From positions 1 to 37,293 of IMG/VR virus record IMGVR_UViG_3300048929_000397: a stretch of 37,293 nucleotides of DNA; one strand, 5' to 3'. The notes under the pieces were generated by a model that saw nothing but the letters and a program-made list of their open reading frames with translations, was not told where the DNA came from and ran no database searches. This document shows positions 8,761 through 36,050 of this stretch, piece by piece. The stretch's first letter is position 1. Every line of letters begins with the position of its first letter. The translations under genes were made by a program, and so were the position numbers. This DNA comes from a virus.

Positions 8761-9273
8761 ATGGAAATATGGCGTGAAATAAAAGGTTACGAAGGATGTT
8801 ATTCCATTAGCAATTTAGGCTATGTGAAGAATATAATAACCGGAAAAATCCTTAATCCTGCTTTAAAAAGAAATGGATATTTATCTGTTGATTTAAGATA
8901 TGGAAGATCGAAAACAGTATCAATTCATAGATTGGTCGCTGAAGCTTTCATTCCAAATCCAGTAGGGTTGCCATACGTAAATCATAAAGATGAATTCAAA
9001 ACTAATAACAAAGTTGAAAATTTAGAATGGTGTACGGCAAAATACAATGTTAATTATGGTTGCGGAGCATTAGTAAAAAACACACCAGTTCTTCAATTTG
9101 ATATGGCTGGACAATTTGTCAAGATGTGGACAAGTATAAAAGAGGCTGCTAACACATTAAGAATAAAGTACCAAGGAATTTCACGAGTGTGCAGAGGGGA
9201 GAGAAAATCTTCTGGAGGTTACATATGGAAATATTTAATTGAATTCAAAATATGTGACGAGGAGGCCAGCTGA
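8761..9273 (+). CDS. HNH homing endonuclease (NUMOD4-HNH)
   Basis: Starts at ATG 8761 after GCGAGGAAAAACT. Domains in order: NUMOD4-type N-terminus (WREIKGYEGCYSISNLGYVKN, residues 4-24), an HNH core of the HNH_3 type (IHRLVAEAFI then VNHKDEFKTNNKVENLEWCT), and a C-terminal NUMOD1-like helix-turn-helix (SIKEAANTLRIKYQGISRVCRG). Such free-standing enzymes spread themselves into intron- or gene-free alleles. It sits exactly between ssb and the next gene, and its 3' end supplies that gene's ribosome site (GAGGAGG). It is a mobile insertion in the operon, not a replication gene. Confidence 0.88.
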   Translation: MEIWREIKGYEGCYSISNLGYVKNIITGKILNPALKRNGYLSVDLRYGRSKTVSIHRLVAEAFIPNPVGLPYVNHKDEFKTNNKVENLEWCTAKYNVNYGCGALVKNTPVLQFDMAGQFVKMWTSIKEAANTLRIKYQGISRVCRGERKSSGGYIWKYLIEFKICDEEAS

Positions 9274-9662
9274 TGAAAAAGAAAAACAAGCCTAAGCCCT
9301 CGGAAGTGATAAAAGCTTTTCTTGATTATTTGGCTGACTGTCAAAAAGAGTATCATGCTTCTTGTACAGAAATGTTTGCAGAGGATAAAAAGCATCAGGA
9401 TTTTGTCCATGCCATTGAGTTTGAAAATAACTCAAAAGAACGGAGCAAAATAGCCACTCAATTTAATATCAGCAGGAACAAACGAAGGGCTGCAAAGGAT
9501 AGATCTCTTGAACTTGAACGAGTTGCAAAGTTTTATTCTGACAAGGGCAATAAGCCATTTATTGATAAATTACGCAGCATGGTTAAGGAGCAAAAGAAAG
9601 AGGAGGAATGGCTTGAAGGCGAGCGGACCTATTATCCCAGAGGAGGTGATTCAGTTTGTTGA
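9273..9662 (+). CDS. Hypothetical basic helical protein, 129 aa
   Basis: ATG overlaps the HNH stop (TGATGA). Highly charged, lysine/glutamate-rich, likely all-helical; no catalytic motif. It overlaps the ERCC4 nuclease gene by 7 bases and carries that gene's AGGAGGTGAT ribosome site, so the two are coupled and may work together. Confidence 0.6.
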   Translation: MKKKNKPKPSEVIKAFLDYLADCQKEYHASCTEMFAEDKKHQDFVHAIEFENNSKERSKIATQFNISRNKRRAAKDRSLELERVAKFYSDKGNKPFIDKLRSMVKEQKKEEEWLEGERTYYPRGGDSVC

Positions 9663-15208: not shown

Positions 15209-15249
15209 GCAATAAAACCCGAATTTGACGTATTACTGAACTTTGATAA

Positions 15250-15285
15250 CTTAATATTGATAGTTAGTAGTGATTGGTGTATTCT
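15250..15285 (+). promoter_or_regulatory. Cargo-gene promoter with inverted-repeat arm
   Basis: -35 TTGATA (15257-15262), 17-base spacer, -10 TATTCT (15280-15285). The -35 lies inside the arm at 15250-15269, which is repeated inverted, with one mismatch in 20, at 15849-15868 behind the gene. Confidence 0.65.
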
Positions 15286-15318
15286 TATTTTAGAAAATAG
15301 GAATTTTGTGGGGGAATC

Positions 15319-15813
15319 ATGTCGAAGTTGATTATTATTAGAGGAAATTCAGGCAGTGGAAAAACAACTATTGCAAAATTATTACAGCAAAAGTTTGGTT
15401 ATAATACGATGCTAATTTCTCAGGATGTGGTGCGTAGAGACATGTTAAGAGTAAAAGATGGTATGGGTACAAAAGCGTTACCACTTATGAAAGAATTGCT
15501 GATCTACGGACATAATAATTGTGAAATTGTTATTTTGGAAGGAATCTTGTATGCTGATCGGTATAAACCCTTGTTTGAATTGGCGTTAGAAGTATTTGGT
15601 AATAATATATATGCATATTATTATGATTTAGATTTTGAAGAAACTTTAGAACGGCATCAAACGAAACCTAATAAAAATGAATTTGGCGCGGAATCCATGC
15701 GTAATTGGTGGAGAGATAAAGACTACATAAGTATAATTCCTGAAAAGAAATTAACGAAAGGAATTGATATAAAAACAACGGTTGAAATGATATTTTTAGA
15801 TACTGAAAAATAA
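15319..15813 (+). CDS. P-loop kinase (AAA_33 / zeta-toxin-like fold), 164 aa
   Basis: N-terminal Walker A loop GNSGSGKTT (residues 8-16) and a following ISQDVVRRDML segment, the substrate and Mg-binding region of small P-loop kinases such as zeta toxins, polynucleotide kinases and chloramphenicol phosphotransferase. A lid-like stretch lies around residues 110-135 (ERHQTKPNKNEFGAESMRNW). It phosphorylates an unknown small molecule or nucleic acid end. It is a stand-alone cargo gene with its own promoter and terminator. No epsilon-like antitoxin is adjacent, which argues against a zeta system. With RtcB and tRNAs present elsewhere, a 5'-OH RNA kinase is possible but unproven. Confidence 0.7.
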   Translation: MSKLIIIRGNSGSGKTTIAKLLQQKFGYNTMLISQDVVRRDMLRVKDGMGTKALPLMKELLIYGHNNCEIVILEGILYADRYKPLFELALEVFGNNIYAYYYDLDFEETLERHQTKPNKNEFGAESMRNWWRDKDYISIIPEKKLTKGIDIKTTVEMIFLDTEK

Positions 15814-15848
15814 TCGACAAATAGCATTGTGAAAATCATAAACACATT

Positions 15849-15883
15849 TACTAACTATCAGTATTAAGCTGGTAGTTTTTTTA
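15849..15883 (+). terminator. Terminator of P-loop kinase gene
   Basis: Stem AACTATCAG with CTGGTAGTT (nine pairs including one G-U), then a run of T. The 5' arm and loop (15849-15868) are the inverted copy of the promoter-side arm at 15250-15269. Confidence 0.8.
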
Positions 15884-18056: not shown

Positions 18057-18111
18057 AAGGAGCCAGCCTCCTGCAGGGGTAAGGGTATACCGGGCTTCTT
18101 TGAAAAAAATG
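18057..18111 (+). promoter_or_regulatory. Structured leader with paired Shine-Dalgarno (copy B)
   Basis: AAGGAGCC pairs with GGCTTCTT across eight positions (one G-U, at a different place than in copy A). The distance from the AAGGAG to the ATG at 18109 is 52 bases, against 51 in copy A. The changed wobble position supports a conserved hairpin. It may keep methyltransferase translation low until the helix opens. Confidence 0.55.
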
Positions 18112-20835
18112 AGAGATTTAATAATAGATTGCTTTGCCGGTGGCGGTGGCGCCAGTGTTGGAATTGAAATGGCTCTGGGTAGACCAGTTGATATAGCTGT
18201 CAATCACAATCCACAGGCTATCAGGATGCACAAAACAAATCACCCTGATACATTACATTTGACAGAGGATATCTTTAAAGTTGATCTGCAGAAGTATGTA
18301 AGAGGTCGTCACGTAGCTTTAATGTGGGCCAGTCCAGATTGTTTCCCTGCTGGGAATTTTGTTTGGACGGATAAAGGATATAAAAATATAGAAGATGTTG
18401 TTTGTGGGGATAGGGTTTTAACACATTTAGGGAATTGCAAGCGTGTATATAGAACCATTAAAAAGAATGATCGGAAGTTTTGCAATATAAAAATAGCTGG
18501 AACAGAGGAGTTTCAGGCTACCCTAAATCACCCTTTCTATGCAAGGAAAAAGAAATGGGTCAGTACTCATAAAGATGGGAAAGCACTGCAGTATACGGAT
18601 ATGCTGGAGCCGCAATGGATAAAAGCTGAAGAATTGACAACGGAATATCGGGTAGGAATTCCAATTAATTCAGAAGCAAAAATACCGGAATGGAACGGAA
18701 CAATCAAATATACATGTAATCAATACGGAATAAATAATTCTTGGATTGAAAATTCATTATCCCAATACTTAGATAAAAATGATTTCTGGTGGTTAATCGG
18801 CAGATACTTGGGAGACGGGTACGTTTCAAATGAAAAGCAGATGGTCGATATTTGTTGCAATTATGATGAGATAAGTGAAATTGATGAGGTCATTAAACGC
18901 CTTAAAATTCCTTATACCACAAGGGAAAAGGATTCTACTTTTAGTTTTTTGATTTCCAGTAAAGAGTTTTGCGAATTTGTGAGTGCTTTCGGTATTGGCT
19001 CTTTGAATAAAAGCATTACACCAGAAATACTCAATTTACCCAAGATTCTTTTACGATCATTTTTAGATGGATACATCAGTGCAGATGGTTCATGGGATAA
19101 TTCTTTAAATAATCCCAGGTGTCAGATAACTACCGTTAGCAGAAAACTTGCTTATGGATTGCAACAATGCTTATTAAAAGCCTATAGCAGATATGCTGGC
19201 CTGACAGTTAATAAACATCCTAATTCATTAATTGAAGGAAGAAAGGTTAATTCACATACAGCGTACATACTTGTATTTTACAAAAACGAAACCAATCGTT
19301 TGCAATACAAAGTTGAGGATAATATGGCATGGGTAAACATCAAGTCATGTAATAAAGTGAATGATAGCCAGAAATCCATATACACGCTTTCGGTGGAAGA
19401 TGATGAAAGTTTTACTGTAAATAATGTGGCCGTTCATAACTGCACCAGTCATAGTAAGGCGAAGGGTGGTAAGCCTAGGGAAAAGGGGTTAAGAATACTC
19501 CCTTGGGCAGTATATAAACATGCTAAAGCTATTCTGCCAGATGTGATCCTGATGGAAAATGTTGAGGAAATTCAGAAGTGGGGACCTTTGGATAATGATG
19601 GGTATCCCATAAAGGAACGTAAAGGGGAAGACTATCAGAGCTTTATAACGGCCATGAAGTCACTAGGCTATGTATTTGATAGTCGGGAACTGGTAGCAGC
19701 AGATTACGGAGCACCTACCACAAGAAAACGATGGTATGCAGTCTTTCGCAGAGATGGCAAGCCAATTGTCTGGCCAGAGCCAACACATAACAAATACGGT
19801 ACTGGTGAATTAAAGAAGTGGGAGCCTATATGGAAGTACTTAGATTTAATGGATTTAGGAAAGTCTATCTTTGGAAGAAAAAAGCCACTTGCAGACAAGA
19901 CTATGAACCGAATAGCCAGGGGCTTGGATAAATTTGTTTTTAACTGTCCAGAACCATTTATCGTTCAAGTAAATCATAGTGGAGATAATTTTCGAGGACA
20001 GAGTATACATGAGCCTATGCCCACTATTACGCAAAAGCATGGCTTTGGAACTGTGACACCGTACATTATGCAGATAGGGCAGACAGGCTTCTGCTCTGAT
20101 AGAAATAGATCCTTAGAAGATCCTATGAGTACAGTAGTTACTAAAAACGAGTATTGCTTTATCAGTCCTATTATGATTCAGTATCATTCCGAAACCTCAA
20201 AGTCTGATGTGAGAGGGCAGTCATTCGACGAACCAATAATGACGCTTGATACTAGTAACCGTTATGGTCTGGTAGCGGCTTTCCTAACAAAGTTCTATAA
20301 AACGGGAACAGGTCAACCTTTATGGGAACCGATACATACAATTACAACTAGCCCTGGACATTTTGGACAGGTAAGCATTCTTGCAATAAGCAAGGAAGAA
20401 CTGCTAATAAATGGTGTTGATGAAGAAACAGCGCAGAAATGTACATGGGTAAGCCAGTTTATTATTAAGTATTATGGTGGTGATGTGACTGGAGTTAGTT
20501 TGGAAGAGCCACTTCATACAATTGTGACGAAAGATAGATTTGCCCTGGTTACAGTCCTTGGGAATGAATATGTGATTCTGGATATTTTCCTACGGATGCT
20601 GAAAGCTGAACCGGAATTAAAACTGGGTCAGGGTTTCCCAGAGGATTACATCATTGATCATGATTACGAGGGAAAGAAATATCCAGTATGTGAACAGGTA
20701 GCCCGTATTGGAAACAGCGTTGTTCCTATTGTGGCAGAAGCTTTGGTTGAGGCGAATTGTCCCTACCTAAAAATAGGAGAGCGAATGCCTAACATGAGAA
20801 TTGATGATAGCCAGGAACAGCTTAGGTTTGCTTGA
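18109..20835 (+). CDS. DNA cytosine-C5 methyltransferase with intein
   Basis: ATG at 18109 (TTG at 18100 possible). Residues 1-77 carry motif I (DCFAGGGGASVGIEMALG). Residues 78-444 are an intein. From 445 the enzyme resumes with CTSHSKAKGGKPREKG (motif IV Cys), then ENVEEIQKWG (motif VI) and DYGAPTTRKRWYAVF (motif VIII). The C-terminus has RIGNSVVPIVAEAL (motif X). The target-recognition part holds about five similar units of the pattern EPMPTITQKHGFG. The spliced enzyme would be 541 residues. It methylates cytosine in DNA, probably to protect phage DNA from restriction. No endonuclease partner is adjacent. Confidence 0.92.
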   Translation: MRDLIIDCFAGGGGASVGIEMALGRPVDIAVNHNPQAIRMHKTNHPDTLHLTEDIFKVDLQKYVRGRHVALMWASPDCFPAGNFVWTDKGYKNIEDVVCGDRVLTHLGNCKRVYRTIKKNDRKFCNIKIAGTEEFQATLNHPFYARKKKWVSTHKDGKALQYTDMLEPQWIKAEELTTEYRVGIPINSEAKIPEWNGTIKYTCNQYGINNSWIENSLSQYLDKNDFWWLIGRYLGDGYVSNEKQMVDICCNYDEISEIDEVIKRLKIPYTTREKDSTFSFLISSKEFCEFVSAFGIGSLNKSITPEILNLPKILLRSFLDGYISADGSWDNSLNNPRCQITTVSRKLAYGLQQCLLKAYSRYAGLTVNKHPNSLIEGRKVNSHTAYILVFYKNETNRLQYKVEDNMAWVNIKSCNKVNDSQKSIYTLSVEDDESFTVNNVAVHNCTSHSKAKGGKPREKGLRILPWAVYKHAKAILPDVILMENVEEIQKWGPLDNDGYPIKERKGEDYQSFITAMKSLGYVFDSRELVAADYGAPTTRKRWYAVFRRDGKPIVWPEPTHNKYGTGELKKWEPIWKYLDLMDLGKSIFGRKKPLADKTMNRIARGLDKFVFNCPEPFIVQVNHSGDNFRGQSIHEPMPTITQKHGFGTVTPYIMQIGQTGFCSDRNRSLEDPMSTVVTKNEYCFISPIMIQYHSETSKSDVRGQSFDEPIMTLDTSNRYGLVAAFLTKFYKTGTGQPLWEPIHTITTSPGHFGQVSILAISKEELLINGVDEETAQKCTWVSQFIIKYYGGDVTGVSLEEPLHTIVTKDRFALVTVLGNEYVILDIFLRMLKAEPELKLGQGFPEDYIIDHDYEGKKYPVCEQVARIGNSVVPIVAEALVEANCPYLKIGERMPNMRIDDSQEQLRFA
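18340..19440 (+). mobile_element. Intein with LAGLIDADG homing endonuclease, 367 aa
   Basis: Begins with Cys (CFPAGNFVWTDKGYKNIEDV, splicing block A), has block B (ATLNHPFY with the TxxH histidine) and ends VAVHN before Cys+1, the normal HN/C junction. Two dodecapeptide motifs of a LAGLIDADG endonuclease lie between: WLIGRYLGDGYVS and LRSFLDGYISADGS. All splicing residues are present, so it should self-excise and also home. The insertion is exactly ahead of the catalytic Cys of the methyltransferase, so the precursor cannot methylate. Confidence 0.93.
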
Positions 20836-20853
20836 TTTATTGTTCTTTGATAA

Positions 20854-20882
20854 TTGAATATTGATAGTTGGAATGGTATAAT
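20854..20882 (+). promoter_or_regulatory. Cargo-gene promoter with inverted-repeat arm
   Basis: -35 TTGAAT (20854-20859), 17-base spacer, -10 TATAAT (20877-20882). GAATATTGATAGTTGG (20856-20871), across the -35 and spacer, recurs inverted without mismatch at 21335-21350. Confidence 0.8.
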
Positions 20883-21316: not shown

Positions 21317-21334
21317 CTTAAGTAATGAAATGAG

Positions 21335-21365
21335 CCAACTATCAATATTCGGTAGTTGGTTTTTT
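21335..21365 (+). terminator. Terminator of DUF3775-like gene
   Basis: CCAACTA (21335-21341) pairs with TAGTTGG (21353-21359), 11-base loop, then six T. The 5' arm and loop are the inverted copy of the promoter element. Confidence 0.88.
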
Positions 21366-21397
21366 GTTACAAAAAATGAAAGGAGGTCAACTGACCT

Positions 21398-21874: not shown

Positions 21875-21938
21875 AAGGATATTATAAGTCAAATTGTCTC
21901 CTTAAGCAACCATATTTTTGAAAAGGAGATTACATATT

Positions 21939-22976
21939 ATGAATGGACAAACTGTTAAAGCTCAGGTTATTAACAATATTATTGTTGCCATGGCAGGGCA
22001 TGTGGCGAAAGAAGTTTTAGATATTCTTCATCAGGTGATCATAAAAGAATTTGTCAATGTCAATATGGAGGAAATCACGACTCTTCCGGTAAAATACCAG
22101 AACGATACGGATCAGAAGAATAAATACATTATTCGACTCTTTATTGTAAAGAAGAAAATAAAAGATAATACAAAGGAAGCGTATCTCAGTGCTATTAAGC
22201 GCCTGATCACCTTGATTGATAAGCCGCTGGACCGAATAGAGGAATCCGACATCAGCTATTATCTTTCCTGGTACGAGAAACGAAATATAAATATTGGTGG
22301 CAAGAAGAATCAGGCCGTTACTGTGAATAATGAAAGACGGTTCCTGTCAGCGTTCTTCACTTGGATGCGGAAAGAAAAATTAATCGGTGACAACCCGGTA
22401 GAAGCAACTGACCCACTAAAAGCAATCAGGAAGCCGATTGATTATTTCAAGCCAGAGGAAATGGCAAAGATGAGGGACGCATGTAAGAACCTCAGGGAAC
22501 GGGCCCTAATTGAAGTGTTGCGTAGTACCGGGGCCAGAGTAGGAGAGTTGGTTGACATTACCCTTAACCAGATAGATTGGAGAACTGGGGATATTATGAT
22601 TCAGGGGGAGAAGAACGACAGATATGAACCAATATTCTTAGATGATGAAGCACGGTATTATTACCAACAGTATCTCAATTCCAGGAGTGATGAAAGTCTG
22701 TTTATGTTTCCTCAATGCAAAGCACCTCATGAAAAGATGTCAACGTCTGGGATCCGAAGCCTATTGAAAACTATTGGCAATCGAGCAAAGTTAAGATGCC
22801 GGGTATATCCTCATAAATTGCGTAAAACGCTGGGAATGAATCTTAAAAATAAAGGAGTGGACCTTGGCACCATTCAGGAGATTCTAAGACATTCCAGTCC
22901 GTCGGTGACCGCTATTTATTACGCTCAATCTACACCGAATACATTAAGAAGTGTAAGAGAGAGGTGTGCAGGATAA
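21939..22976 (+). CDS. Tyrosine recombinase (XerC/D-type integrase), 345 aa
   Basis: I use ATG 21939, eight bases after AAAGGAGATT. The N-terminal core-binding domain (AYLSAIKRLITLI ... FLSAFFTWMRKEKLI) is followed by the catalytic domain with Arg I (RSTGARVGELVDI), HxxR (HKLRKTLGM) and the H/Y pair (LRHSSPSVTAIYYA). All catalytic residues are present. It overlaps the next regulator gene by one base and lies in the middle of the phage genome. Whether it integrates the phage or acts in resolution cannot be told, since no att core was found. Confidence 0.88.
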   Translation: MNGQTVKAQVINNIIVAMAGHVAKEVLDILHQVIIKEFVNVNMEEITTLPVKYQNDTDQKNKYIIRLFIVKKKIKDNTKEAYLSAIKRLITLIDKPLDRIEESDISYYLSWYEKRNINIGGKKNQAVTVNNERRFLSAFFTWMRKEKLIGDNPVEATDPLKAIRKPIDYFKPEEMAKMRDACKNLRERALIEVLRSTGARVGELVDITLNQIDWRTGDIMIQGEKNDRYEPIFLDDEARYYYQQYLNSRSDESLFMFPQCKAPHEKMSTSGIRSLLKTIGNRAKLRCRVYPHKLRKTLGMNLKNKGVDLGTIQEILRHSSPSVTAIYYAQSTPNTLRSVRERCAG

Positions 22977-26541: not shown

Positions 26542-26571
26542 AGAAAAATGTCATTTATGGGGGGATTATTT

Positions 26572-27657
26572 ATGGTATTTAATCAAAACAAATTTTCAAA
26601 TTTAAAAATTAATAGGATTATTGTGCATCAGATATATCAGAGAGAAGATAAAACAGTACTTATTCCTCCTTTTTACAGTTCTTTATGTTGCGAGATTGAT
26701 GTTAATTATAATAGCAAGATTAAGGAGAGAATAGTGAAATCCATGGGAAGCGGGGCCCATTCAATACGCATGGATATTTCTGATACGAGTGACGATAGCG
26801 CATATAAAGCCATTTCAAATTATTGGACAAAAGGAGAGGGAGAATCTGGATTTATTGAATTATCAAAAAATCTAACCTTGATGCTTGCAAATGCACAAAA
26901 CAATAGGAGATATCCTGGTGGCATATTGATTTTTGTTGATGGAACCGTTCAGGCCAATAATCGCCAGTTCTTTTGCATAATCAAAGCAGAAGAGCAAGAT
27001 GGTTTTTCCTTAAAGAAAGAAATAAATAACTTAGATTTGTCATATGTTGCTCAAATATTCATGACAAAGAATGAGAAGTTCCAAAAAATTGGTATTTTTA
27101 TAAACAATGCAATAAAGGGTAGAGATATTGAATCTAAGGATGTAGATAGCTTTATATTTGACAGCAATACAGATCCCTCCATTTCAAAATCTAAAGCAGA
27201 ATATTTTTACGATTCATTTTTGGGCCTGGATTTCAGAAGAGATAGCGATCTTTTAACTTATAATTTTGTGGAATGTACCAAAAGGTTTATAAAGAGTTTA
27301 GAAAATGTTGATGACGTAAAAAAGATAGAAATGTCAACGGCCCTATTGGCTTATGTTGGGGCTGATGGGATTGCTATTATTAATCCTAAGGACTTCGCTG
27401 CAAACAATTTTAATACGCCGGAATTAATTGATGAATATGAAAAGTATCTTACCGAAAGATCGGTAGAATTAAATAGTATACATAAAAATACGGCTATGCT
27501 TGGAGGATTATTAAAAACTAGAAATTTACTTTTCTCAAACAAGGTAAAGTTACAAATACCTGTGGATGAGTTTGAAGAAGCTGTTGAAATAGTAAAAGAT
27601 GGAGCCAGTGGGGAAACAATTGTAAAAATAAAAGGGCTGATGCTGAGTGAAAAATAA
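26572..27657 (+). CDS. Nucleoid-associated protein NdpA/YejK-like, 361 aa
   Basis: I choose ATG 26572 behind GGGGGGATT. Family pattern: an N-terminal half ending GGILIFVDGTV, then QFFCIIKAEEQDGFSL, YVAQIFMTKNEKFQKIGIFI and AEYFYDSFLGLDFRRDSDLL, as in 37-kDa nucleoid-associated proteins. Those bind bacterial chromosomes; in defence contexts relatives may sense DNA state. It overlaps the downstream alarmone synthetase gene by 11 bases, so the two are made together. The rest of the window carries no other nucleoid gene. Its pairing with an alarmone enzyme is the unusual point. Confidence 0.7.
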   Translation: MVFNQNKFSNLKINRIIVHQIYQREDKTVLIPPFYSSLCCEIDVNYNSKIKERIVKSMGSGAHSIRMDISDTSDDSAYKAISNYWTKGEGESGFIELSKNLTLMLANAQNNRRYPGGILIFVDGTVQANNRQFFCIIKAEEQDGFSLKKEINNLDLSYVAQIFMTKNEKFQKIGIFINNAIKGRDIESKDVDSFIFDSNTDPSISKSKAEYFYDSFLGLDFRRDSDLLTYNFVECTKRFIKSLENVDDVKKIEMSTALLAYVGADGIAIINPKDFAANNFNTPELIDEYEKYLTERSVELNSIHKNTAMLGGLLKTRNLLFSNKVKLQIPVDEFEEAVEIVKDGASGETIVKIKGLMLSEK

Positions 27658-28627
27658 AGTTACAGAGAAAGAGTTTATTGAGCGATACAAATTGGAACGC
27701 TCTATATATGAATCTTGGGGAAATTATCTAAAAGATTATATCTTACGAGAGTTAAGGAATGAATATGTGAATCTTGACAAAATATTAAAGGTACCTGTTT
27801 CTTGTAGAACCAAAGACATAGAATCTTTGGTAACTAAAGCATTTTATAGAAAGAAGGATTATAAAGATCCATATCAGGATATTACTGATAAAGTAGGCAT
27901 TCGGTTCGTTGTCATGACAGAGCGTCAGGTCGATTCAATAAGTAGAATTATTGAATCATGTGTTAATTGGCTGAAATATTCAAAAGATGTAGATTATAAT
28001 ATACTAAGAGAAGTGCATCCAGAGGAGTTCGATTACCAATCACAACACTATATTGTAAAAAATCTGAATGAAATTAAACTTGATGAATATACTATACCAC
28101 AGGATACACCATGTGAAATACAGATACGAACTTTAGAACAGCATGCCTATGCGGAAGTATCTCATGAATTGTTTTATAAAAAGAATTGTGCGCAGGATGG
28201 CAAGGCTCTAAGATTGTTGGCTCGGACGGCCGCTTTTAATGAGCAAAGTGATGAGCTCTTTGGAAGGATGTATGACATGATTGAGAATCAGGATATATAT
28301 TATAATGATTTCATGAAAATCCTTACCGACAGATATAATTTTGTTTACAATAATGATAAACTAAATCGTACAATATATGATGATATTGAACCCTTAATTA
28401 CTAAATACGGTATAGATGCTGAGAAAATTACCCGATATATTTTGGATAAACCGTTTGTTTTGGAACAAATAAAGGAAAAACAGTGGGAAATACTTTTTAA
28501 TCAGCCTGTAGTATTGGTTTTATATTATTTAGTAGAAGGCTTTAATAACGAATTAAGTAGCGTTTGGCAATACACGGAAAATGTTTTAGATCCTATTAGG
28601 GCAGATTTAGGCATAGCAACGGATTAA
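27647..28627 (+). CDS. RelA/SpoT-type alarmone synthetase, 326 aa
   Basis: Synthetase signature in order: RTKDIES (R54, K56, S60) with K64 and RKK at 68-70; DKVGIRFVVM (D81, the Mg/ATP aspartate); FDYQSQHY (Y130, the G-loop tyrosine); EIQIRTLEQHAYAEVSHEL (E157, catalytic glutamate). All key synthetase residues are present, so it should transfer pyrophosphate to a nucleotide or another acceptor. There is no HD hydrolase domain. A 140-residue helical C-terminus is unlike housekeeping RelQ/RelP. Toxic small alarmone synthetases (toxSAS, CapRel) are phage-defence effectors; this may be a related effector controlled by its NdpA-like partner. A strong terminator follows. Confidence 0.82.
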   Translation: MKNKVTEKEFIERYKLERSIYESWGNYLKDYILRELRNEYVNLDKILKVPVSCRTKDIESLVTKAFYRKKDYKDPYQDITDKVGIRFVVMTERQVDSISRIIESCVNWLKYSKDVDYNILREVHPEEFDYQSQHYIVKNLNEIKLDEYTIPQDTPCEIQIRTLEQHAYAEVSHELFYKKNCAQDGKALRLLARTAAFNEQSDELFGRMYDMIENQDIYYNDFMKILTDRYNFVYNNDKLNRTIYDDIEPLITKYGIDAEKITRYILDKPFVLEQIKEKQWEILFNQPVVLVLYYLVEGFNNELSSVWQYTENVLDPIRADLGIATD

Positions 28628-32704: not shown

Positions 32705-32826
32705 TGCGAGATGTGTTGACGTTTTCTTGTTTCCAAACGACTCTGTGATAAACGGTAGTGAAACAGGCGTTTACGACCGGCGGTAGTGAAGCTCCGATCT
32801 TGTACGGAACAAGGGAAAACTACACT

Positions 32827-32899
32827 GTACCTTTAGCGCAGTGGTCAGCGCACCCGGCTCATAACCGGGCGGCCCTGGGTTCGAATCCCAGAAGGTACA
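32827..32899 (+). tRNA. tRNA-Met (CAT)
   Basis: Acceptor GTACCTT/AAGGTAC, D-stem GCGC, anticodon stem CCCGG/CCGGG with loop CTCATAA (anticodon CAT at 32860-32862), T-arm CTGGG TTCGAAT CCCAG. CCA not encoded. Elongator Met is most likely; an Ile-type lysidine-modified CAT tRNA cannot be excluded. Confidence 0.9.
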
Positions 32900-32915
32900 T
32901 TTTGCACATTGGAAA

Positions 32916-32944
32916 TTGAATATTGATGGTTGGTGTGGTAAAAT
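32916..32944 (+). promoter_or_regulatory. Cargo-gene promoter with inverted-repeat arm
   Basis: -35 TTGAAT (32916-32921), 17-base spacer, -10 TAAAAT (32939-32944). GAATATTGATGGTTGG (32918-32933) recurs inverted without mismatch at 33844-33859. Confidence 0.8.
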
Positions 32945-32975
32945 AAAGGAAATATTTGAATGGAGATTTTTACAT

Positions 32976-33836
32976 ATGAGTACTATATTAGAATGGGTTA
33001 AGAACAATAAAAAGTTTACTTTAATAATACTACTAGGAATGATTTTTTTTCCAATATTTTTTTGTCATATTATATTTAAAATTCCATCTCCATTTAATTT
33101 ACTTAATCATGAATTTGAATCTGGAGATTTACTAGGGTATTTTGGAGATATCCTATCATTTATAGGAACAGTTTTTTTGGGGTATGTGGCTATATGTCAA
33201 ACTGAAAGAGCAAACTCAATAAGTACTGAACTTGCCGAACTGGAATGGAAAAAAAGACAACCATGTTTAGATATTGGTGGAAATCAAGCCTATAATCTAT
33301 ATGTTGATCCAGAAGCGATTGAAAAGTGTAATAAAAAATACGGAATCAATGATTTCAAGATAAGGCCATATTATATTAATAAAAACAATCGTACTGGTAT
33401 TATTACAACAATTGCGGTAATGGTAATTGATATAAAAAATACTGGTGGGAGCGATATAAGGAATATTTTTGTAAAGTCAAATTATTGCTATTTATCAACG
33501 AGATTACCAGAAGGATATGATGAATGTGAAGTATTTGGTATTGAGGGAGATACATATATCAAACAAGGAGAAAGCAAGAGGTTATTTATTGAATTTCAAC
33601 AAGAGCTAGATGTAGAAAATGAAAATTTTGATTTTGATAAAGTTATATCATGGGTTAATGATAATAAATTGATGATTCCAGCATTTGACTTTGACTTACA
33701 ATTAATAACAACGGATGAAATTAAATACAATGAAAACTTAGTATGCACGACATCTATACCGTATATAGATTATAAAAAAAATGAAGTGAAAAGATATTTA
33801 TCATCAGTGAGCATTAATGTCAAAAGACAGAAATAA
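32976..33836 (+). CDS. Two-transmembrane cargo protein, 286 aa
   Basis: Start at ATG 32976 (TGGAGA upstream); the in-frame start at 32916 lies before the predicted transcript start. Two membrane segments near the N-terminus (TLIILLGMIFFPIFFCHIIF and LLGYFGDILSFIGTVFLGYVAI) are followed by ~200 soluble residues rich in beta strands, without a recognisable enzyme motif. It has its own promoter and terminator with inverted-repeat arms. Phage-encoded membrane morons of this shape often block superinfection or act in abortive infection; no direct evidence here. Confidence 0.7.
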   Translation: MSTILEWVKNNKKFTLIILLGMIFFPIFFCHIIFKIPSPFNLLNHEFESGDLLGYFGDILSFIGTVFLGYVAICQTERANSISTELAELEWKKRQPCLDIGGNQAYNLYVDPEAIEKCNKKYGINDFKIRPYYINKNNRTGIITTIAVMVIDIKNTGGSDIRNIFVKSNYCYLSTRLPEGYDECEVFGIEGDTYIKQGESKRLFIEFQQELDVENENFDFDKVISWVNDNKLMIPAFDFDLQLITTDEIKYNENLVCTTSIPYIDYKKNEVKRYLSSVSINVKRQK

Positions 33837-33843
33837 TACACTA

Positions 33844-33874
33844 CCAACCATCAATATTCGGTGGTTGGTTTTTT
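33844..33874 (+). terminator. Terminator of two-transmembrane gene
   Basis: CCAACCA (33844-33850) pairs with TGGTTGG (33862-33868), then six T. The 5' arm and loop are the inverted copy of the promoter arm. Confidence 0.88.
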
Positions 33875-34853: not shown

Positions 34854-36050
34854 ATGAGTGATTTAAAAATCTTCACTGAAAATATAGAGCAAGAGGCTTT
34901 GGATCAGATTTATACCCTGATTAAACAACCAGCATTTGCTGAATGTAAAGTGCGAATAATGCCAGATGTGCATGCCGGTAAGGGATGCGTAATTGGTTTT
35001 ACTGCTGATTTAGGAGATAAAGTAATTCCAAACATCGTCGGAGTAGACATTGGCTGCGGCATGTTGACTGTTGGTTTGGGGAATATCAATATTGACTATG
35101 AAAAATTGGATTCGGTCATTCGGAAGAACATTCCTTCTGGTCGTAATGCTCGGGAAGAAGAAATTACTTTTTCAAATATTGAAGAACTGTATTGCAGATC
35201 CGAACTTAAAAATATCAGTTGGCTACGCTACAGCATGGGAACACTGGGCGGTGGGAATCACTTCATAGAGGTCGATGAAGATTCAGATGGCAACAAATAT
35301 CTAATTATTCATACCGGGAGCCGTAACCTTGGTAAGCAGGTGGCTGAGATATATCAACAATTGGCCATAGACAGTATGCAAGGATCAGGCAAACTGGAAC
35401 AGGCCATTCAGGAGTTGATTCAGGAATATAGGATTGCTGGTCGTGCAAAGGAAATTCAATCTGGTATACGGGGTCTGAAACGTAAATTTCAGCCGGATAA
35501 GTTGAACATTCCAAAAGAACTTTGCTATTTGACAGGGGAAGATAGGGAACGTTACCTTCACGACATGAAAATTTGTCAGAGCTTTGCCGGAACAAATCGT
35601 GAGTGGATTGCCTCTATCATTTGCCAGAAGATGGGATGGGATTATTCCATGGGGAAGTCATTTCAAACCATTCATAACTATATTGACCATGATACCAACA
35701 TTGTGAGAAAGGGTGCTATTTCTACCAGAGCAGGCGAATTGCTGTTAATTCCCATTAATATGCGTGATGGTTGTATTATTGGTAGAGGCAAAGGGAATCT
35801 GGATTGGAACTGTTCTGCACCGCATGGATCCGGCCGGATAATGAGCCGATCTAAAGCCAAAGAAAAAGTTTTATTAGAAGAGTTTGAATCTTCTATGTCT
35901 GGTATTTTTACAACTTCTGTAAACAGCTCAACTATTGATGAGTCTCCTATGGTGTATAAACCAATGGGAGAAATTGTTCAAAATATTAAAGACACCGTTG
36001 ATATTGAGAATATTATAAAACCAGTATATAATTTTAAAGCAAGTGAATAA
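34854..36050 (+). CDS. rtcB: RtcB RNA ligase, 398 aa
   Basis: Complete RtcB signature: PDVHAGKGCVIGFT (D38, H40), VGVDIGCGM (C68), GGGNHFIEVD, HTGSRNLG, HNYIDHD and NCSAPHGSGR (guanylation-site region), then DESPMVYKP near the end. The enzyme joins RNA with a 2',3'-cyclic phosphate or 3'-phosphate to a 5'-OH end, using GTP and Mn. Its shorter length is normal for one RtcB branch. It is in a phage transcript next to zinc-ribbon proteins, 2 kb from two tRNA genes. A role in repairing tRNAs cut by host anticodon nucleases is plausible. Confidence 0.93.
   Translation: MSDLKIFTENIEQEALDQIYTLIKQPAFAECKVRIMPDVHAGKGCVIGFTADLGDKVIPNIVGVDIGCGMLTVGLGNINIDYEKLDSVIRKNIPSGRNAREEEITFSNIEELYCRSELKNISWLRYSMGTLGGGNHFIEVDEDSDGNKYLIIHTGSRNLGKQVAEIYQQLAIDSMQGSGKLEQAIQELIQEYRIAGRAKEIQSGIRGLKRKFQPDKLNIPKELCYLTGEDRERYLHDMKICQSFAGTNREWIASIICQKMGWDYSMGKSFQTIHNYIDHDTNIVRKGAISTRAGELLLIPINMRDGCIIGRGKGNLDWNCSAPHGSGRIMSRSKAKEKVLLEEFESSMSGIFTTSVNSSTIDESPMVYKPMGEIVQNIKDTVDIENIIKPVYNFKASE

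Follow-up and report, generated by a model that had tools for sequence, protein, structure and literature searches.

This study showed that the repeated arm at the start of a cargo cassette from phages of gut bacteria is a leader strand lying directly after a boxA, and that it is complementary, as RNA, to a trailer strand, which is the ascending arm of the intrinsic terminator of the same cassette. The window, that is, the whole 37,293-nt stretch of viral DNA analysed here, contains three such cassettes, each in the order of boxA, leader arm with promoter, one gene, and trailer arm with terminator. With this rRNA-type module of boxA and leader-trailer complementarity, the cargo gene would have a promoter and a terminator of its own and yet probably be transparent to read-through.

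Results

All features of the three cassettes are on the + strand. Cassette 3 begins with the boxA TGCACATTGGAAA (32903-32915), 2 nt downstream of a tRNA-Met gene (32826-32900, +; ARAGORN and Rfam), followed by the 5' (leader) arm (32916-32935, with its partner strand at 33842-33861), the promoter (32916-32944; TTGAAT-17-TAAAAT with TG ahead of the -10), a cargo gene of 286 aa (32976-33836), the 3' (trailer) arm (33842-33861), which is the ascending half and loop of the terminator, and the intrinsic terminator itself (33843-33874; 10-bp stem, 7-nt loop and U tract, -14.5 kcal/mol, z -4.4). The initial annotation had placed the cassette at 32916-33874; these limits are correct for the stretch between arm and terminator, whereas the conserved unit begins 13 nt earlier, at 32903, with the boxA. 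Cassette 2 consists of the boxA TGTTCTTTGATAA (20841-20853), the 5' arm (20854-20871), the promoter TTGAAT-17-TATAAT (20854-20882), a gene for a 133-aa protein without a Pfam family and with a homologue in cassette L018 (20915-21316), and the 3' arm (21335-21352) within the terminator (21332-21366). A third, more divergent cassette, cassette 1, spans 15237-15882 and comprises the boxA TGAACTTTGATAA (15237-15249), the 5' arm CTTAATATTGATAGTTAGTAG (15250-15270), a promoter in another register (TTGATA-17-TATTCT, 15257-15285), a gene for a 164-aa P-loop kinase (AAA_33; 15319-15813), and the 3' arm (15848-15868) in the terminator (15853-15882).

As had been pointed out from the sequence of the window, G/C replaces A/T in both arms of cassette 3: GATGGTTGG (32925-32933, +) and CCAACCATC (33844-33852) correspond to GATAGTTGG (20863-20871) and CCAACTATC (21335-21343) of cassette 2, and the same complementary base differs in both arms. 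In cassette 3 the two make up the central part of an inverted repeat of 17 nt without mismatches (32918-32934 and 33843-33859), the arms of which are separated by 908 nt. The second, descending half of the terminator hairpin also differs between cassettes 3 and 2 (GGTGGTTGG vs. GGTAGTTGG). The GAATATTGATNGTTGG arm is present in the window in four exact copies; with up to two mismatches allowed there was one extra match, at 15252, the start of cassette 1, and the reversed control pattern gave none. With up to three mismatches, TTGAATATTGATRGTTGG was found five times in the window against 0.23 expected, a number that none of 100 shuffles reached.

Scans of viral contigs and genomes yielded 92 non-redundant cassettes with both ends. 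In this set, which was collected with a tolerant boxA pattern, every arm is preceded by a boxA, the signal for NusB/S10 antitermination in rRNA operons, and the boxA letters G, C, TT and AA vary little or not at all. When cassettes were found by terminator sequence alone, the boxA core G..C.TTG was present at a fixed offset in 55 of 59 (background 0.12%), and two of the four misses have a boxA that is off by one base. Of the four exact matches to the pattern TGNNCNTTGRNAA in the window, three are the cassette starts. Like rrn transcripts, RNA entering a cassette from upstream would contain a boxA of the TGNNCNTTGANAA type and beside it a leader complementary to a trailer.

Likely hosts show this arrangement in their rRNA operons. 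In Claveliimonas bilis, AGCACCTTGATAACTGAACAATAGACAAC lies ahead of the 16S gene and the matching trailer GTTGTTGTCTATTGTTGAG behind it, so that the boxA is immediately followed by a leader strand pairing with a trailer strand; the same genome carries cassette L117. In the Lachnospiraceae-type genome G075, CGAACTTTGATAATTGAACAACA stands before the 16S gene, and its GAACTTTGATAATTGAA is identical at 17 of 17 positions to cassettes L012, L068 and L110. These two genomes are those in which a host rrn boxA could be read, as few sampled genomes yielded 16S matches. Since boxA and leader/trailer recur in the rRNA operons of likely hosts, the cassette has the layout of a 16S leader and trailer.

The initial annotation had proposed that the two ends change together, and the alignment of the 92 cassettes and the covariation check confirmed this: the arms do not vary independently. 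At position 12, the site first noticed, there are 45 A-U, 43 G-C, 4 G·U and no A·C pairs, and compensated changes were also found at positions 2, 3, 11 and 16, so that five of the 18 pairs have changed on both sides. For the 46 distinct arm pairs, the paired cells amount to 96.0% of 828, compared with 92.8% in shuffles, and 31 cells are changed on both sides, compared with 8.8 (a count that no shuffle of 500 reached). The covariation score of 0.215, compared with 0.149 in shuffles, was likewise reached by none of the 500 and exceeds that of all slid controls. These shuffle statistics are inflated by the kinship of the sequences. Controls in slid registers were 20-51% paired. One-sided changes at positions 2-17 left 34 G·U and 15 A·C (p 0.005; 46 distinct arm pairs, which are not independent). 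As DNA repeats without a mutational strand bias predict equal numbers of the two, the excess of G·U indicates selection on RNA pairing; the 15 A·C together with 11 other mismatches at these positions count against this reading. Pairing of the two arms as RNA is thus well supported.

A repressor or another DNA-binding protein with an operator shared by promoter and terminator, acting by looping or by a stoperator-like block of elongation, would also place one 16-nt sequence in the promoter spacer and in the terminator of every cassette, as is seen. We consider this highly improbable, because the arm sequences of cassettes 1, 2 and 3 differ within one phage, G·U is favoured in one-sided changes, the arm is not palindromic, and boxA alone is constantly found next to it.

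In each of the 92 cassettes the leader-trailer duplex is energetically favoured over the terminator hairpin, with medians of -25.6 and -14.9 kcal/mol, respectively; the corresponding values are -25.6 and -10.9 kcal/mol for cassette 1, -24.4 and -14.7 kcal/mol for cassette 2, and -28.6 and -14.5 kcal/mol for cassette 3. Within the window, every leader pairs best with the terminator of its own cassette; looked at from the terminators, the best partner is the arm of the same cassette or, where cassette 3 is concerned, the match shows in the preference of the arms for their own terminators. The arms extend through the terminator loop, which is not required for termination. Cassette 1 and L080 have their terminator stem in a different register with the arm unchanged.

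A functional link between promoter and terminator arms had been suggested from the sequence, and the -35 and spacer of the cassette promoter do overlap with the 5' arm. The arms covary, but as a description of them this link is imprecise: the promoter does not account for the arm, because the -10 is found beyond the conserved block, in one of two registers (56 vs. 33 of the 92 cassettes; at least five of six letters matched in 83 of 92). In both registers, judging from the promoter motifs, transcription would start downstream of boxA and arm, and with such a start only RNA entering from upstream would include them.

In 10 of the 92 cassettes, cassette 3 among them, boxA lies 1-4 nt after a tRNA gene, and for these the region upstream is certainly transcribed. 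The tRNA-Met/boxA junction of cassette 3 is also present in L071, L083 and L090, and other tRNAs abut boxA at 1-4 nt in L039, L051, L068, L094, L123 and L192, the kinds overall being Met, Gln, Ile, Thr and Arg. The order of tRNA and then boxA recalls rRNA spacers.

Comparison of related phages demonstrated that the cassettes are inserted as whole units between operon genes. In L319 the site is empty, with a Dam-like methyltransferase gene, 31 bp and the start of the next gene, and L006, L021, L045 and L041 carry a full unit, boxA through U tract, between this pair of genes; L311, L316 and L320 have other DNA there, in which boxA was not found. Different cassettes occupy one site in the related phages L067/L078, in L016/L023, and in the window/L083/L090/L071; the similarity of the flanks runs to boxA and resumes at the U tract, and the cargo differs. 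According to strands from a crude ORF caller, both neighbours share the direction of the cassette 51 times and both oppose it twice. Because the unit lies inside operons, an unconditional terminator there would be polar. An opposite-strand gene follows 15 cassettes, where read-through has no obvious use, and this counts against the reading preferred here. Around the gene for an RtcB-type RNA ligase near cassette 3, no empty site was found, as the site-bearing relatives all have boxA and the rest are too diverged, and at the site of cassette 2, a hotspot, the relatives have inserts of many kinds and none was cleanly empty. The RtcB gene itself (34854-36050) lies between cassette 3 and a terminase-like gene and is kept in related viral contigs.

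The presence or absence of full units at sites and their exchange for others are also what would be expected if the arms were terminal inverted repeats or recombinase sites acting in DNA, as in a non-autonomous transposon or an integron-type cassette. The arms are inverted repeats, and a tyrosine recombinase gene (21918-22976) is located 0.6 kb downstream of cassette 2. This explanation seems very unlikely to us: the conserved outer sequences are asymmetric, boxA on one side and the U tract on the other, with the arms inside them; orientation is biased 51 to 2 and G·U exceeds A·C; arm sequence varies between families with complementarity kept; and no target duplication is evident at the empty-filled junction of L319 and L006. 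Neither outer inverted repeats with a target duplication nor an orientation independent of neighbouring transcription, as transposons would have, were thus found.

Alternatively, the ends could be conserved boundaries for homologous recombination, and the arms could match owing to the inheritance of entire units. The exchanged sites described above, with different cargo between flanks that are similar up to boxA and from the U tract, fit such boundaries, and arm types cluster by lineage. Linkage accounts for the joint travel of the arms, but not for independent changes that still pair, for the complementarity of loop and leader, or for the invariant boxA, and we therefore regard it as improbable as the whole explanation. 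Homologous exchange in the conserved ends is probably how the cassettes spread, besides the RNA function.

Units with other arm sequences were also found. A complementary arm lies 0.15-2.6 kb downstream in 39 of 114 boxA sites with other arms, compared with 2 in the reversed-arm control, and many of these units lead on into a hairpin with a U tract, as in L164 (TTGAATAATGCGGTGTTT ... AAACACCGTATTATTCA ... CGGTGTTTTT). We listed 22 other arm sequences, approximately two-thirds of which are convincing by eye; in L177 the leader-trailer pair has 29 aligned positions. Some units outside the core family have no obvious U tract, and their trailer may not be a terminator. A boxA with the 17-nt complementary leader-trailer pair GAATATGGGTGCGTTG / CAACGCACCCATATTC is present in L169, L195, L160, L135 and L176; a Shine-Dalgarno sequence stands close behind the arm in some of these, and a promoter and a strong U tract are not obvious. 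From their sequence, these units may represent the helix without a terminator.

No Rfam family covers the cassette ends, and a similarity search with the short ends found no close relatives in annotated phage records. In the Streptococcus prophages Javan549, 570 and 583 (L250 2501-2860, L251 2501-2850 and L253 2501-2860), a boxA, promoter, small gene and hairpin adjoin an antirepressor gene at differing places in the genome. No complementary arm was noticed by eye in them, and they are possibly boxA-tagged units without complementary arms.

The cargo is diverse, as the 83 surveyed proteins form 53 clusters. The G+C content is lower than that of the phage (28-33% compared with 37%). The protein of cassette 3 belongs to the largest cluster (9 of 83) and has two transmembrane helices and a divergent beta-rich domain. 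It has no family in Pfam, PADLOC or PHROGs, and its AlphaFold model is of low confidence (mean pLDDT 45). Domains identified in the cargo include DUF4062, DUF2971, KAP NTPase, NYN, FRG and the AbiJ N-terminal domain, and PADLOC returned the candidate defence families PDC-S31, S20, S32, S15, QatA and PifA. Some of the cargo genes are therefore candidate anti-phage defence genes.

Other features were noted in the same DNA. A C5-cytosine methyltransferase gene of the window (18100-20835) has an intein-like interruption with hedgehog/intein-type splicing motifs and an endonuclease-like insert. In a variable low-G+C stretch (26548-28627), an NA37-like nucleoid-protein gene overlaps a RelA/SpoT-domain gene, and this pair is possibly a two-gene defence or toxin-type unit. 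The cassette-bearing viral contig L068 contains a Type II hammerhead ribozyme (9217-9284).

Discussion

The layout of the cassettes suggests how a cargo gene could be expressed alone and still be transparent to transcription of the surrounding operon. In a prophage, RNA started at the cassette's own promoter would omit boxA and arm and end at the terminator, so that the cargo would be the only gene expressed. Transcription of the phage operon from upstream would give RNA with a boxA, which would be bound by NusB/S10 and tethered to RNA polymerase, and the leader arm adjoining the tethered boxA would be kept at the RNA exit. The emerging trailer arm would then pair with the leader (18-21 bp) rather than form the terminator hairpin, and the polymerase would continue into the next phage gene, leaving the cassette in the operon without polarity. 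Because the trailer is the ascending arm of the terminator, its pairing with the leader would block termination.

The binding of NusB/S10, the tethering and the antitermination are what we infer by analogy with the rrn operons of E. coli, for which a leader tethered through boxA by NusB/S10 on the polymerase is modelled to pair with the trailer as it emerges (PMC10250234). Altered boxA-boxC spacing had modest effects in that system (PMC10250234). On the assumption that NusB also acts at boxA on the phage operons of these hosts, the cassette would hold a conditional terminator, which would work for RNA begun inside the cassette and be disarmed in cis, by the boxA-tethered leader and without a phage protein, for RNA from outside. 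Such a terminator would sense where a transcript had begun. We give roughly even chances to this reading taken as a whole, in which the rRNA boxA and leader-trailer helix have been adopted as a general insulation device by many Firmicutes phages, with arms of unrelated sequence.

The main rival to the conditional terminator is RNA processing, in which the leader-trailer helix of read-through RNA would be cut by RNase III to excise or stabilise the cassette mRNA, with boxA aiding the helix and termination control being secondary. The anatomy resembles that of pre-rRNA and the complementarity is at the RNA level, the helices of 18-21 bp are near the >17 bp required by the 16S leader-trailer helix (PMC10250234), some units outside the core family have a helix and no obvious U tract, and the tRNA that abuts boxA in 10 of the 92 cassettes is a transcript needing processing. 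Against this, the trailer of the core family always overlaps the terminator, and in cassette 1 and L080 the arm stays complementary where the stem register shifts, so that both functions appear to be co-selected. Processing in place of antitermination accordingly appears unlikely to us, though not negligibly so, and the two may coexist.

Several known systems share parts of this design. In the rRNA operon with its 16S leader-trailer helix (rrnTAC), as in the cassettes, boxA is followed by a leader complementary to a trailer after the gene, and the letters of the cassette boxA match host rrn leaders at up to 17 of 17 positions. Unlike rrnTAC, the cassettes enclose a protein gene with an internal promoter, their trailer also serves as an intrinsic terminator's ascending arm, and they are phage-borne and mobile between sites. 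They resemble phage morons, which are single genes of low G+C with their own promoter and intrinsic terminator, present or absent between adjacent phage genes; here, too, a promoter and terminator surround a non-essential gene, the cargo is diverse, and the site in L319 is empty. Classical lambdoid morons depend on phage-wide N or Q antitermination, whereas every cassette described here brings along a boxA of its own, with an arm that is complementary to the cassette's terminator.

The lambda nut site (boxA-boxB with the N protein) likewise puts a boxA antitermination signal into a phage transcript. Unlike it, the cassettes have no local boxB-type hairpin beside boxA, the 5' ends of the three window cassettes folding no better than shuffles (z 0-0.8), and the arm pairs 0.3-1.4 kb downstream. 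With integron gene cassettes and attC they share the single-gene unit and the palindromic end, but no arrays were seen, and they differ in having their own promoter, scattered sites, a biased orientation, and ends made of boxA and U tract. In a literature search largely confined to non-subscription journals, we found no description of a boxA and leader-trailer module around phage accessory genes, or of boxA in morons or in Gram-positive phages. The single components, namely morons, boxA and the leader-trailer helices of rRNA, are already known; what appears from the sequences to be new is moron cassettes with an rRNA-type antitermination module.

An inserted gene with its own terminator should silence the genes behind it, and the cassettes appear to solve this problem locally, with a copy of the antitermination layout of host rRNA. 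If true, this would account for the free swapping of terminator-bearing cargo, including candidate defence genes, among phage operons. The arrangement also provides a search signature for cargo genes, namely a boxA with an adjoining arm whose complement is found again ahead of a U tract. Further, the proposed tethering of the rRNA leader by boxA would become testable with a small reporter in place of the ribosome.
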